DNA of 16,350 nt, from the NCBI GenBank assembly GCA_021157815.1, contig JAGGVT010000087.1, forward strand, positions 1 to 16,350. Reading direction: 5' to 3'. A program made the translations under genes and the position numbers. Origin of the DNA: a bacterium. GTDB taxonomy: Bacteria; JAJVIF01; JAGGVT01. Shown here one piece after another: positions 1 to 16,350 of the stretch. Under the pieces are notes generated by a model. That model was given only the letters and a program-made list of their open reading frames with translations, ran no database searches and was not told the origin of the DNA. Every line of letters starts with the position of its first letter. Position 1 is the stretch's first letter.

Positions 1-123
1 CTGTTGAAAAACCCCGTTTTGTCCCAGACCGTAGGGGCAACTCTCCGTGGTTGCCCTGTATTTATGCCAATATTTAGGGTAGGCACAGAGACCTACCCCC
101 TACATTCAGCCCTTTTTCAACAG
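1..123 (+). repeat. 123-bp interspersed repeat, left copy (MITE-like)
   Basis: The element is bounded by an 11-bp terminal inverted repeat, CTGTTGAAAAA at 1-11 and TTTTTCAACAG at 113-123. Inside are two hairpins: GGGCAAC 35-41 pairs with GTTGCCC 50-56, and GGGTAGG 77-83 pairs with CCTACCC 92-98. The reverse complement of 16224-16346 is identical to it at every base. It has no coding capacity. The form suggests a non-autonomous interspersed element; no transposase is present to confirm mobility. Target-site duplication cannot be judged because the window begins at its first base. Confidence 0.85.
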
Positions 124-156
124 CCCCTTTCGCGGGAATGACGGAATTTTGTTTCG
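124..156 (+). repeat. Extension of the end repeat, with CGCGGGAATGACG half-palindrome
   Basis: This stretch continues the similarity with the right end of the window: it matches the reverse complement of 16191-16223 with two mismatches, then the two ends diverge. It contains CGCGGGAATGACG at 131-143, the same sequence that returns inverted at 234-246. It resembles the common intergenic CATTCCCGCG-type repeats of many bacterial genomes. Confidence 0.7.
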
Positions 157-169
157 CTGGAAGTCATTC

Positions 170-11277: not shown

Positions 11278-13242
11278 TCAGAAATAATCGTACTTCGTTA
11301 CTTGTGGACCATGCTGAGTAATATGAATTGAGTATTCAGTATCGTCCGTGTCCAAATAAGCAGGTTTATTTTCCACAGCGGGCTGTGTGCTATCGCCAAT
11401 ACGGTCCACAAAAGCGCCGTTTAAAGCGTCATAAATATAAACAGAACCACCATAACCAGGAGGCGGATAGGGGAATTCCTCGTTGTCAATAAGGACACAT
11501 AGTACTGGATTAATGGTGGCGGGTTCATAGTCAGGATTTATCGGCAGCAATTCGCAGTCAATTGGTGATGCCCGGTTGCCATCCTCATCAACCACCCACA
11601 TTGTGAACATGTGTCCAACATAATCATTGGGGCCAGGACCGGTATCGCAAATCATGAAGACCTCGACTCTCATGTTGTTTTTAAGCGCGACATAAAGCAT
11701 GATGCAGTCTTGTTCATAATCAGCCCAGCAGTCAATTCCAGCAATGTCAGCAGGATCAATCTGTCCGTTGTCCGGACCGACAAGTGCTGGTGGGAAATAA
11801 GCCTCCCAAATCATGTCAGCATCTGTGTAATCGAATCCGAATTTCTCGCCGGGAATTCCCTGGAAACCGACAATTCCCTGATCGAGATTGACATAGAGGG
11901 CGCACTGGTCACCACGGAAGGTGTCGCAGCAGTCAACCGGTTCGAGGAAAAATTCCTGCAACCAATGCATGTAGTGACGGTGGTCATCGTTTTCAGGACT
12001 ATAGATGAACTTCGGCTGGTTGTCGAAATTACACCATGTGTCCTGATTTCTGATAGGAAAGGCGCGACCCCAATCGGCTCGATTATCGTTTGTCCATCCA
12101 AAAGCGCCATCGTTTGTGGCATCCAGACGAACTACCGGATATGGCTGAAAATTGAGATCAGTTGGATCAAGATTCACAAGGTCAGCATAGAGCGCTGATG
12201 GATTTCCCCAGCCGGGATATTTGTTTATCTTGTTGCAGACACCTAAGGCATCATCCATCGCCATAAGGATATGGCCACCTGGAATGTCGCCAATTACACC
12301 GAGATCGAGCGTGCATTGTCCCGCTGGAAGTCCCCATGTGCCATCCGGTTGCCAGCCAACCGGAGTCGGAATAACTTCGATATCAACATAGTTATAAAGA
12401 TCGAAATTCTGCGGGTTGGGTGATACCGCGGTAATCAGGCATGTGTAGATTCCAACAGGAGCTCCCATCGAGTTTGTCATACCTTGATACCAGTGATTTC
12501 CACTTAGGTTTGCCATGTAATTAACGCCGCCGTTTATCGGCGTGGCGTCAACTGAAACTGATGTTACATTCATCTGCCAGTCATCGACATAACATCCGAT
12601 ATTGGCAAAACCGCCAGATGGGTAAAGTTCGCCTGTCTGGTACATTCCGTTGATTTCGTAAGGGTCCTGGCAGTTCAGCCATAGCCATGCTGTAACTTTG
12701 AAATCCAGTGTAAACGGACTCATCGGAGGCCAGTAGATATCGACAGTTTCAGTAATCGAGCTGCCCGCTGCAAATTGACGATTGAATATTGTTTTTCCGA
12801 AAGCAATGAAAGGCTCGATTGTTCCAACAAAAGCACTCGTGTAACTGTCCGCATTAACGATTTCCTTTATGCCAAGATTATAGAAAATCATGCGGATATC
12901 ACTGGGTGTCCATGCTGATGGATTTGTGATTGTTACATCAAATGACGCGATGTGTGTCACAGCATCCCAACTATTGAGAGTCGCGGCGATACATCCAGAT
13001 CCGCCACATGCTGGTGGATTCAGGAAAGCTGATATTTCATAGTGAATTGATGATTCACGCTCATAGTTGATCTCTACCTCGCCAGTGGTCGGATCAAATA
13101 TCAGTCTGTAATCCCCCCAGTCCTGCGCGATTTGCTCATCAGCAGGAACAGGGGAGTCTGCCGGTGCCACAACGTTGCTTGATGAACATGCTGACAACAT
13201 CAGTACAGGCAGTAAAATCAGAAACAGGTAAAGTGTTCGCAT
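11278..13242 (-). CDS. Large secreted lipoprotein of unknown function
   Basis: The 654-residue product starts with a lipoprotein signal: MRT, a hydrophobic stretch, and the lipobox LSAC with Cys19 as the lipidated residue. Ser follows at +2, so sorting to the outer membrane is expected. The mature protein is acidic, rich in Asp, Pro, Trp, Tyr and Cys, and looks beta-rich. It opens with DWGDYRLIFDPTTGEVEINY, and a C-terminal segment, GSVYIYDALNGAFVDRIG, resembles a beta-propeller or NHL-type blade. I recognise no catalytic motif. The chosen ATG has GGAGG eight bases upstream (13251-13255); an ATG at 13257 in the same frame overlaps that ribosome site and is unlikely. A decayed paralogue lies upstream at 13553-13753, so it belongs to a gene family in this genome. 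A surface or binding role is only a guess. Confidence 0.85.
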   Translation of the reverse strand: MRTLYLFLILLPVLMLSACSSSNVVAPADSPVPADEQIAQDWGDYRLIFDPTTGEVEINYERESSIHYEISAFLNPPACGGSGCIAATLNSWDAVTHIASFDVTITNPSAWTPSDIRMIFYNLGIKEIVNADSYTSAFVGTIEPFIAFGKTIFNRQFAAGSSITETVDIYWPPMSPFTLDFKVTAWLWLNCQDPYEINGMYQTGELYPSGGFANIGCYVDDWQMNVTSVSVDATPINGGVNYMANLSGNHWYQGMTNSMGAPVGIYTCLITAVSPNPQNFDLYNYVDIEVIPTPVGWQPDGTWGLPAGQCTLDLGVIGDIPGGHILMAMDDALGVCNKINKYPGWGNPSALYADLVNLDPTDLNFQPYPVVRLDATNDGAFGWTNDNRADWGRAFPIRNQDTWCNFDNQPKFIYSPENDDHRHYMHWLQEFFLEPVDCCDTFRGDQCALYVNLDQGIVGFQGIPGEKFGFDYTDADMIWEAYFPPALVGPDNGQIDPADIAGIDCWADYEQDCIMLYVALKNNMRVEVFMICDTGPGPNDYVGHMFTMWVVDEDGNRASPIDCELLPINPDYEPATINPVLCVLIDNEEFPYPPPGYGGSVYIYDALNGAFVDRIGDSTQPAVENKPAYLDTDDTEYSIHITQHGPQVTKYDYF

Positions 13243-13330
13243 GGTAAATACCTCCATACGTATTTAAAATTGGTAATATTTCAAGAAACTACTATCTAGA
13301 ATCTTCTGAAAAAAGCTCATTCTATTGTAG

Positions 13331-13552: not shown

Positions 13553-13753
13553 TCAGGAATAATCGAAATTTGCAATCTCCTTCCCGCCAAGATTGTAGAA
13601 AATCATGCGGATATCGCTCGGAGTCCAGGCTGATGGATGAATAATTGTCACATTGAATCTGGCAATGAAAGTGACCGGATTCCAGACGACAAGTGTTGCG
13701 GTGATACATCCGGCGCCACCGCATGCAGCCACGGTGACAGCCCATATCGCATA
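13553..13753 (-). pseudogene. 66-codon remnant of a paralogous lipoprotein gene
   Basis: In one - strand frame, 13753 to the TGA at 13553 encodes 66 residues that match an N-terminal part of the neighbouring lipoprotein. Over 54 aligned residues starting at CGGAGC (CGGSGC in the full protein), 40 are identical by my count, including the 14-residue run SAWTPSDIRMIFYN. The frame is closed upstream by TAA (13754-13756) and has no start codon, signal peptide or ribosome site, so it is not a functional gene as it stands. An overlapping frame with an ATG at 13745 encodes unrelated sequence and is a by-product. The similarity ends after KEIANFDYS, where a stop replaces the remaining part of the full protein (about 500 residues). 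It is a duplication that has lost both ends. Confidence 0.88.
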
Positions 13754-13836
13754 TTATTAATTAACTTCGCTATAAGATTGCCATTCCGGCATGAAAATCT
13801 CAAAATTGATTAATTATTCAAACCCTGATTCAAATG

Positions 13837-13893: not shown

Positions 13894-15093
13894 ATGAAAA
13901 GGCGAGAGTTCATAGCTAAAAGCATTCTGGCAGGTTCAGGAATTTATCTTGCATCCATACTTGCGGATATTTTCGGCCGTGATGTGCTGGATATAGCGTA
14001 CGCCAAATCGAAATATCCATCAAAACTGACCCCAGCAAGATTCTGGATTGAGGATTCCAACGGCAATTCCTCATGTACTCTTTGCCCGAATGGATGCCAT
14101 ACCGAGGGTGAGTATGGCATATGCCGTTCAAGAATTAAAAAGAACGGTAAGTTTTTCACAGAGGCATATAACCAGATAGCGGCGATACATGATGATCCCA
14201 TAGAAAAAGCGCCCCTTTACCATTTCATGCCGGGTTCAAGAACAGTATGCATGGCTGCAGCTGGATGTAACGCCAGATGCAAGTACTGCCAAAACTGGCA
14301 GTTAAGCCAGGAATCGCCATCGAATGTGAAAAATGATGAGATAACCCCTGAAAAAGCTGTTCAACTTACAAAAGAGAGGGGATTCGACTGCATCGGATTT
14401 TCATATACAGAACCTATGACATATATGGAATATGTAATAGATACATTCGAGGCTGCACATGCGCAAAATATAAAGACATATGTCGCATCCGCCGCATATG
14501 TGAATAGAACTCCGTTTAAGCAGCTTTCGAGCGTATGTGATGCTTTCGCGCTGGCGTTAAAAGGATTCGACGAGAAATTCTATCAGGACATGGTTGGAAT
14601 CAGGATGAATAGAGTATTAGATATTCTGGTTTATGCAAAAGAGCTGGGATGCCATCTTGAAGTGGTTAATTTAATTGTTCCTACATATAACGATGATGTA
14701 AGCAAGATAGGGGAAATGGCAAAGTGGATTGTGAAAGAACTTGGCGATGATACTCCTCTTCATTTTTTAAGGTTCTATCCGAAATTCAAATTGTCGAATC
14801 TGCCTCCAACGCCTATCAGCACGATGGAAGTAGCCCGGAAGGAATCGATTGAAGCCGGTTTGAAATATGTCTATCTCGGAAACGCGCCAGGGCATGAGGG
14901 CAACAGCACATATTGCCCGAGTTGTGGAAAAGTCGTGATAGGACGCATTGGTTTCAGAGTAGTGCAGAATAATATTAGTAACGGGAAATGTAAATTCTGT
15001 GGCGCTGAGATCCCCGGAATTCTGGATAAAATAACACTGGATGATTTCGAAAGCAGAAAGAATCCGATGAAGAAAATAAGAAAGAAGAAATGA
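13894..15093 (+). CDS. Tat-signal radical SAM protein, AmmeMemoRadiSam (AmrS-like) type
   Basis: The 399-residue protein starts with a twin-arginine signal (KRREFIAK, residues 2-9), a hydrophobic helix and a possible cleavage site after AYA (35-37). The mature part has CTLCPNGC (61-68) with Cys77 in GICRSR, then DDPIEKAPLYHFMPGS, the hallmark of AmmeMemoRadiSam-system radical SAM enzymes. The radical SAM cluster motif CNARCKYC follows (Cys125, Cys129, Cys132). A C-terminal zinc ribbon uses Cys341, Cys344, Cys366 and Cys369. Where the family usually has SxGTxGCN, this protein has CMAAAGCN. The signal is odd because SAM and reductant are cytoplasmic; it may reflect folding-dependent export or a membrane anchor. 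The other AmmeMemoRadiSam parts are not in the window. A gene for an exported helical protein follows 18 bases after its stop, so the two are probably cotranscribed. Confidence 0.9.
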   Translation: MKRREFIAKSILAGSGIYLASILADIFGRDVLDIAYAKSKYPSKLTPARFWIEDSNGNSSCTLCPNGCHTEGEYGICRSRIKKNGKFFTEAYNQIAAIHDDPIEKAPLYHFMPGSRTVCMAAAGCNARCKYCQNWQLSQESPSNVKNDEITPEKAVQLTKERGFDCIGFSYTEPMTYMEYVIDTFEAAHAQNIKTYVASAAYVNRTPFKQLSSVCDAFALALKGFDEKFYQDMVGIRMNRVLDILVYAKELGCHLEVVNLIVPTYNDDVSKIGEMAKWIVKELGDDTPLHFLRFYPKFKLSNLPPTPISTMEVARKESIEAGLKYVYLGNAPGHEGNSTYCPSCGKVVIGRIGFRVVQNNISNGKCKFCGAEIPGILDKITLDDFESRKNPMKKIRKKK

Positions 15094-15111
15094 AATACGC
15101 GGAGGTGCGTA

Positions 15112-16101
15112 ATGGCGTTTAATATCAACCATAAAACCATACTGATTGCAGTAGTACTGCTGGTAGGATCATTTGCGCTGATATCATCAGTTCCAACCAA
15201 TGCGGAGGGCAAATATCTCAAGGATTCGAAAAGGGGAAATGATTCGAAAGCTGTTTCCAAAGCTATTGAAGGTTCTCCGGAAAAGATCAGCATTGAAGAA
15301 TTCCATCGCCAGAGGCAGAAGATATCGGGACTGAATCTGCTTAACGGGCTTTATCTTACAGAGGAACAGATGGAGCAAATAATTCCACTGGCAAGGGAAA
15401 CTCGTGAACTCGAAGAGCAGGCTCTTGATAAATTAATTGAAATTAACAGCAATCCGGAATTCATCGCAGCTCTGGATGAGCATGTAGCAATGCTTCTCAG
15501 GGGTGACCAACCCGAAGGAAAGCTGGAGCAGACTCTTAATCGTTTCCATGACCAGGAAGTTGAAATTGGATATGGCCTTGATAAGAAGAGACAGGAATTG
15601 GGTTTGAAAGCAATCGAGATTTTTTCAAAGGAACAAATGGCTCTGATTGCTGAATTCAAGCCGTGCCTTATTGCGCCGCAGGATGAGAATTCGACACTTA
15701 CCGGGTCGGCATCGGGAGGGCTTCATGTCCATAATGCGTTGAAGAAAATAAGACGTATTCCTGACAGAATATGGGAAAAGCGCAAGGACAAGTACATGGA
15801 GAAAATCATTGAGCAGAACGATAAACACTCACCGGATTTTCTTGATTTTGACGCTGAAAAGAAACGCCTGGATAGGATAATTAACAAGGCAAGAAGCTAC
15901 AGCGATGCTGAGTTCGAACTTCATGTGCAGGATTTGGCGAATGAACTCCTTCTGGAACGTGGAGTTAGTTATGAACAGAAGTGGGTTGCAAAGAAGGTCG
16001 CGAACTTACTTTTGAATCGTGACATGGAAGCGGTTTATGTTGCGAAGCTTGATCAGCTAAAGAAAGAAAAGGCGCAGCTGGTTACATCGGGGAAAGAGTA
16101 G
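15112..16101 (+). CDS. Exported helical protein of unknown function (LTxxQ-like motifs)
   Basis: The 329-residue product has a Sec signal peptide (hydrophobic 10-25, likely cleavage after NA at 30-31). The mature part is almost entirely charged helix. LTEEQ at 82-86 and FSKEQ at 171-175 recall the LTxxQ motifs of Spy/CpxP-type periplasmic chaperones and metal sensors, though the spacing and length differ. After the second motif comes EFKPCLIAP with the only cysteine of the mature chain (Cys185), then a glycine-rich linker and HVH (205-207), then more helix to the end. Cys185 with His205 and His207 might bind a metal. GGAGGTG at 15101-15107 is a strong ribosome site. It should be made with the preceding radical SAM protein; a substrate or partner relation is possible but only inferred. 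Confidence 0.82.
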   Translation: MAFNINHKTILIAVVLLVGSFALISSVPTNAEGKYLKDSKRGNDSKAVSKAIEGSPEKISIEEFHRQRQKISGLNLLNGLYLTEEQMEQIIPLARETRELEEQALDKLIEINSNPEFIAALDEHVAMLLRGDQPEGKLEQTLNRFHDQEVEIGYGLDKKRQELGLKAIEIFSKEQMALIAEFKPCLIAPQDENSTLTGSASGGLHVHNALKKIRRIPDRIWEKRKDKYMEKIIEQNDKHSPDFLDFDAEKKRLDRIINKARSYSDAEFELHVQDLANELLLERGVSYEQKWVAKKVANLLLNRDMEAVYVAKLDQLKKEKAQLVTSGKE

Positions 16102-16190
16102 TTTTAATCAATGTAATGTTGCAATTGTGTGTAAATAGTATAGTACCATGCTAAAGAGCCTGTCTGGAAAGGTAAAAATCGCCATTCCCA

Positions 16191-16223
16191 CGAAACAAGA
16201 TTCCGTCATTCCCGCGAAAGGGA
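16191..16223 (-). repeat. Extension of the end repeat, right copy
   Basis: Reverse complement of 124-156 with two mismatches, again holding the CGTCATTCCCGCG sequence (16204-16216). To its left, 16102-16190 shows no gene, terminator or promoter that I can support. Confidence 0.7.
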
Positions 16224-16346
16224 CTGTTGAAAAAGGGCTGAATGTAGGGGGTAGGTCTCTGTGCCTACCCTAAATATTGGCATAAATACAGGGCAACCAC
16301 GGAGAGTTGCCCCTACGGTCTGGGACAAAACGGGGTTTTTCAACAG
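16224..16346 (-). repeat. 123-bp interspersed repeat, right copy (MITE-like)
   Basis: Inverted copy of 1-123 with no mismatch, bounded by the same 11-bp terminal repeats (CTGTTGAAAAA at 16224-16234, TTTTTCAACAG at 16336-16346). The window ends four C bases later. Complete identity between copies 16 kb apart points to recent spread, gene conversion, or the same repeat used to close both ends of an assembled contig. Confidence 0.85.
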
Positions 16347-16350
16347 CCCC

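Follow-up and report, generated by a model that had tools for sequence, protein, structure and literature searches.

Radical-SAM enzymes are generally assumed to depend on SAM and low-potential electrons from the cytoplasm. The 16,350-nucleotide stretch analysed here (the window), a single contig of a 91%-complete, 3.2-Mb draft genome, raises the question of why a gene for such an enzyme, preceded by a Tat-type signal, lies directly upstream of a gene for a second protein with an export signal, and what the two products could do together. The genes, named P1 and P2, are on the same strand and separated by 18 bases (15094-15111), as the preliminary description of this DNA had reported. The features that the text refers to are the following.

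13894-15093, + strand: P1, radical-SAM enzyme of 399 amino acids, TIGR04337 (AmmeMemoSam_rS / AmrS family) by profile match
13894-14004, + strand: putative P1 Tat signal peptide, residues 1-37, MKRREFIAKS...AYA, from the RREF motif, the cleavage-like AYA site and the invariance of the motif in the clade
14074-14124, + strand: P1 N-terminal Cys motif CTLCPNGCHTEGEYGIC (C61, C64, C77), Cys invariant in the clade
14266-14289, + strand: P1 radical-SAM 4Fe-4S motif CNARCKYC (CX3CX2C, residues 125-132), invariant in the clade
14914-15000, + strand: P1 C-terminal zinc ribbon (C341, C344, C366, C369), inside the TIGR04337 model, Cys invariant in the clade
15101-15105, + strand: Shine-Dalgarno-like GGAGG before P2, from the sequence
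15112-16101, + strand: P2, exported helical partner of 329 amino acids, family absent from Pfam and NCBIfam
15112-15204, + strand: putative P2 Sec-type signal peptide, residues 1-31, from the sequence and the signal-like N-termini of relatives
15292-15654, + strand: P2 LTXXQ-like N-terminal helical domain, residues 61-181, from hhalign and AF2 helices
15655-15714, + strand: P2 signature loop FKPCLIAPQDENSTLTGSAS (C185, G198 and A200 invariant), a degenerate form of FxPCLIPPxDLxNPVRxGQA
15721-16089, + strand: P2 C-terminal helical domain, residues 204-326, from the AF2 model; no relative found and no LTXXQ match in the control

The family that best describes P1 is TIGR04337 (309 bits against a cut-off of 220; 2.5e-92), the match spanning residues 48-392 and positions 1-347 of the 349 in the model; the Pfam Radical_SAM match scored 5e-17. 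The complete radical-SAM motif and the AmrS-type core recognized in the preliminary description are both borne out. The zinc ribbon, which had been taken there for an extra domain, is a regular part of the TIGR04337 model and was rejected as an addition. The radical-SAM cysteines are all invariant across the P2-linked clade defined below. The Tat signal noted earlier also holds up: P1 has a twin-arginine motif, a hydrophobic stretch and a cleavage-like site, TatC is encoded by the window's genome, and R3, R4 and F6 do not vary among 17 clade members, in contrast to the remainder of the signal. P1 shares the N-terminal Cys motif, the radical-SAM core and the zinc ribbon with the AmmeMemoRadiSam system (TIGR04335 A, TIGR04336 B, TIGR04337 radical SAM), but differs from it in being Tat-signalled, linked to P2, and without a MEMO or AMMECR1 neighbour. 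The search for AmmeMemo partners elsewhere in the genome, which the preliminary description had proposed, was half successful: a single MEMO gene, unsigned, is located on another contig (C2), away from P1 and P2, and no AMMECR1 was detectable in this 91%-complete genome, so that the three-part set is not found. MEMO was also rejected as a neighbour of the pair in general, since none occurs within 4 kb of the P2-linked genes. The genome encodes a second radical-SAM protein, on contig C161, which is unsigned and 33% identical to P1 (E 5e-57).

To what extent P1 and P2 belong together can be judged from other genomes. An initial search found P2 in 6 of 192 diverse genomes, in three of which (the window's, G121, with two pairs, and G173) it adjoins a P1 relative, and in the phylum of G121 a profile search detected it in 16 of 39 genomes. 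Scanning the GTDB genome collection with the window P2 alone yielded no matches because the family is divergent and this member degenerate. A scan of named genomes with a profile made from a closer set of P2 relatives returned 19 loci, distributed among Riflebacteria, one deltaproteobacterium, Aminicenantes, Planctomycetota and Verrucomicrobia/Spartobacteria, and a Tat-signal TIGR04337-type relative of P1 is adjacent to P2 in 17 of them. Of the other two, L110 lies at the end of a contig and L121 has no P1 relative in its 19 kb. The prospect raised in the preliminary description, that homologues of the enzyme gene might never lie beside this exported protein, is excluded by these counts. Adjacent pairs were also found in further Riflebacteria genomes. 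Both gene orders occur, P2 being second in Riflebacteria and in the window and first in nine other adjacent pairs. There are in addition P2 relatives away from any P1-clade gene, at L121 and in genomes G058, G097, G131 and G194, the latter four of which do carry other exported or TIGR04337-type enzymes. In G097 (L040:1745-8696) the genes around the P2 relative encode a sigma factor, an LTXXQ-like protein of shorter length and ABC/efflux-type proteins; genes for an exported radical-SAM enzyme and for a MEMO that bears a signal follow 5-8 kb downstream. One locus labelled Candidatus Methylomirabilis (L111, DYKG01000007.1, the same as G197 by position and length) has a P2 pair that groups inside Riflebacteria, and the label is therefore probably wrong.

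Trees were built by a quick method with SH-aLRT support and by FastTree. The 23 P2-linked radical-SAM cores form one side of a single branch among 97 cores (SH-aLRT 96); shuffling the P2-linkage labels on this tree gave a mean of 20.7 changes. When 20 further Riflebacteria loci, picked by the P1 profile and not by P2, were added, the clade stayed intact (FastTree 0.993) and only two of its members had no P2 beside them. One is G222:C320, from a genome with unlinked P2 genes elsewhere; the other is G218:C163, on a 3-kb contig from a genome in which P2 is at the end of another contig. Tree distances of P1 and P2 are correlated (r 0.86, 24 pairs; best of 2000 permutations 0.49). The correlation is weak for the 11 non-Riflebacterial pairs (r 0.38, p 0.05), as expected for very divergent sequences. 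The earlier idea, that an exported radical-SAM enzyme here has an exported protein of its own as partner, is strongly supported by the linkage across phyla in both orders, its restriction to one clade and the invariant RRxF, and on these sequence comparisons P1 and P2 almost certainly constitute a functional pair.

No family in Pfam or NCBIfam matched the window P2, and its 21 relatives gave scattered chance matches together with hints of LTXXQ/Spy; the PF07813 gathering cut-off was not reached by the window protein, and one of the 21 relatives matched at E 0.046. Profile comparison with hhalign was more informative: the profile-profile probability of a match to LTXXQ proteins was 97.9% for whole P2 and 96.9% for the N-terminal domain, with the LTxxQ motifs in register, against 0-0.6% for the controls (the reversed alignment, the P2 C-terminal domain and three unrelated families). 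The Sec signal, the LTxxQ-like motifs (LTEEQ at 82-86 and SKEQ at 172-175) and the lone C185 listed in the preliminary description are all present; several other family members likewise have a single Cys. The HVH sequence, offered there as a clue, does occur at residues 205-207; it is not conserved in the P2 family and was discarded as a metal site. AF2 models are all-helical (pLDDT 80.5 for the window P2 and 83.4 for L119, a canonical relative). Searches with Foldseek and VIA-align returned no convincing fold, the best Z of 6-7 being usual for helical bundles. The CnrX structures 4wwf and 2y3h match the model of a relative over 95-101 residues, nearly the whole CnrX chain, with Z 5.5-5.6, a weak match tied with unrelated helical proteins. 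Like the LTXXQ proteins of PF07813 (Spy, CpxP, CnrX), P2 is predicted to be exported and helical and has two LTxxQ-type motifs, but the window protein has no PF07813 match, and P2 adds a signature loop, a C-terminal domain and linkage to a radical-SAM enzyme. Judged by its sequence, P2 is a previously unclassified exported helical protein.

The loop lies between the two P2 domains, and no other 20-residue stretch in the family is as well conserved: the commonest residue has a share of 0.80 on average, compared to 0.44 overall, and the Cys and Gly are invariant in 21 aligned sequences. It is modelled without secondary structure and with low pLDDT in its second half, and in L119 the pLDDT is below 50 at residues 181-186, which is consistent with a flexible segment. 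In the window version, FKPCLIAPQDENSTLTGSAS, the C, G and A are kept, whereas NPVR and Q, and with them most of the NPVRxGQA half, have been lost. In planctomycetal/spartobacterial loci P2 is doubled, either as two domains fused in one protein (L120:8909-10870 and L123:6840-8633) or as two genes in tandem (L122:6575-8719), which hints that P2 may work as a dimer.

What P1 could do to such a loop is suggested by its relatives. Outside its own family the nearest characterised ones are pyruvate formate-lyase activating enzyme and the glycyl-radical activases (TIGR02493, 8e-18); among solved structures pyruvate formate-lyase activating enzyme comes first (PDB 3c8f, 6e-13) and the anaerobic sulfatase-maturating enzyme, a weak sequence match, second. 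Both of these enzymes act on proteins. Glycyl-radical activases target a Gly in a flexible protein loop, and in the cytosol the anaerobic sulfatase-maturating enzyme, also of the radical-SAM type, modifies a Cys or Ser residue in an export-bound protein. P2 is not itself a glycyl-radical enzyme, since no glycyl-radical domain was found by Pfam or NCBIfam in the 21 members; its R-V-G-Q-A is only loosely like RVxGY. The sulfatase system differs in that P1 scored no SPASM family in Pfam and P2 has no CxPxR sulfatase motif. Neither is this a sactipeptide/SPASM maturase pair, given the lack of SPASM in P1 and a partner that is a folded protein of 329 amino acids. The unstructured, conserved Cys/Gly loop, its tie to one enzyme clade and the action of the relatives on protein loops together lead us to read the loop as the place where P1 acts or binds.

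We propose, with a probability of about 0.4, a dedicated two-gene extracytoplasmic radical-SAM system in which P1 modifies the P2 loop in the periplasm; its location, substrate and chemistry, including the site and kind of the modification, are what we infer from the family membership, signals, genome linkage, clade specificity and loop conservation that the sequences support. P1 would fold in the cytoplasm with its 4Fe-4S cluster and zinc ribbon before export by Tat, and P2 would be exported via Sec. In the periplasm the LTXXQ-like domain of P2 would offer the flexible Cys...Gly loop to P1, which would use SAM to take a hydrogen from it. The resulting change could be a Cys-to-C-alpha thioether, an oxidation of the Cys or a Gly-centred change, and it would give P2 its mature function in the envelope. 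The assignment of P2 as the substrate is tentative. Several observations count against this proposal: the degraded loop half of the window P2, the P2 relatives that are not beside a P1-clade gene, and the weak correlation among non-Riflebacterial pairs. To our knowledge there is also no periplasmic source of SAM or of a strong reductant.

A somewhat less probable reading makes P2 a partner and not a substrate: as a periplasmic chaperone or adaptor of the LTXXQ type it would help exported P1 to fold, dock it or shield it, with the loop as docking site and another envelope protein, a lipid or a small molecule as substrate. Spy and CpxP are periplasmic chaperone or adaptor proteins, and the resemblance of the P2 N-terminal domain to LTXXQ proteins, with CnrX among the weak structural matches, fits such a role, as does a size and fold unlike those of most radical-SAM peptide substrates. 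Moreover, P2 is absent from the wider exported branch discussed below, the chemistry of which must then be independent of it. On the other hand, an invariant and often lone Cys in a flexible loop exceeds the usual needs of docking, and some P2 relatives have no linked enzyme to attend to.

A modification of P2 in the periplasm would require that P1 reach it, and here the larger family is instructive. The P2-linked clade sits, by its sequences, inside a wider exported branch of TIGR04337: 53 of 98 sampled proteins of this type look exported by a rule-based signal call, and 45 do not. A Tat signal is present on all P2-linked enzymes whose N-terminus is intact, while nearby and sister branches have Sec or transmembrane signals instead, which argues that location, and not route, has been selected. 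On its signal, P1 very probably ends up outside the inner membrane. MEMO-AMMECR1 proteins encoded next to exported enzymes mostly bear Sec or lipoprotein signals, whereas those next to cytosolic enzymes are mostly unsigned (exceptions L048, L072 and L129). At seven loci (L050, L052, L055, L057, L070, L077 and L078) there is a whole AmmeMemoRadiSam set in exported version, consisting of a Tat or Sec radical-SAM enzyme and a MEMO-AMMECR1 fusion with a Sec or lipoprotein signal, often accompanied by a Tat-like DUF362 protein and a polytopic spermidine-synthase-like protein.

SAM and low-potential electron donors such as ferredoxin are located in the cytoplasm, and the known maturases of exported sulfatases act before export. 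Both facts favour a reaction carried out in the cytoplasm, on the P2 precursor or another substrate, after which the enzyme would be carried out, or be merely anchored, by its Tat-like signal. We consider this unlikely, because the dedicated and invariant Tat motif, its exchange for Sec or transmembrane signals in sister groups and the signal peptides of the MEMO-AMMECR1 partners indicate that the exported location matters.

For a periplasmic reaction, possible sources of SAM and electrons come from the neighbourhood of the exported enzymes. A 12-TM spermidine-synthase-like protein is encoded within 4 kb of 20 of the 53 exported and none of the 45 cytosolic enzymes (Fisher 1e-6), and a DUF362 protein, mostly with a Tat-like N-terminus, within the same distance of nine and none, respectively; the sampled rows are related by descent, so that p-values overstate their independence. 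DsbD-like membrane proteins occur at some exported-enzyme loci, an enrichment that is not significant. The spermidine-synthase-like gene also adjoins several P2 pairs; in the window's genome it is located on contig C200. It is a speculation that membrane proteins with a SAM fold and electron-passing membrane proteins are the suppliers. In a more specific and less probable version of our proposal, P1 would be one module of a wider exported AmmeMemoRadiSam branch, to which the spermidine-synthase-like, Tat-signal DUF362 or DsbD-like protein would deliver SAM or electrons from the cell interior, and the change made in the P2 loop would be a protein radical or a Cys-to-Gly C-alpha thioether.

Slightly less likely than a cytoplasmic reaction is a periplasmic sensor, in which an exported Fe-S/SAM-type site would signal redox or metal state through P2, as CnrX does in CnrYXH. 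The LTXXQ-like domain and the sigma factors upstream of the G097 P2 locus and downstream of the G173 pair would suit it, but the window pair has no sigma factor next to it and the catalytic-type motifs are all kept. That P1 and P2 are functionally unlinked chance neighbours in an operon is effectively excluded by the linkage over several phyla, the two gene orders and the clade-specific association, with no supporting point found.

The recurrence of the pair in several phyla suggests that radical-SAM chemistry may extend to the cell envelope. A branch whose members consistently carry export signals and have exported partners of their own raises the question whether these enzymes work outside the inner membrane and who supplies their SAM and electrons. 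The AmmeMemoRadiSam family, for which we found no description of function in the literature searched, gains in P2 a specific partner protein in which a possible site of modification can be named. P1 falls in a known family; no description of the P2 family, of the pairing or of the exported radical-SAM/MEMO branch and its neighbours turned up in the searchable literature. An earlier mention of exported Memo-Ammecr1 systems is possible, and PMC7159879 cites a 2019 paper on Memo-Ammecr1 systems.

Two minor features of the window concern the surroundings of the pair. Positions 1-162 (- strand) and 16150-16350 (+ strand) are occupied by a dispersed repeat, about 130-200 bp long and with ...TTTTTCAACAGCCC at its end; about 40 longer copies are spread over the draft genome, several at contig ends, and its presence on both flanks of the contig probably explains the assembly breaks. 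Upstream of P1, positions 13570-13760 (- strand) are a duplicate remnant of the neighbouring gene for a 659-amino-acid lipoprotein (11278-13257), reading AACGGAGCITATL...HPSAWTPSDIRMIFYNLGGKEI with stops at either side.
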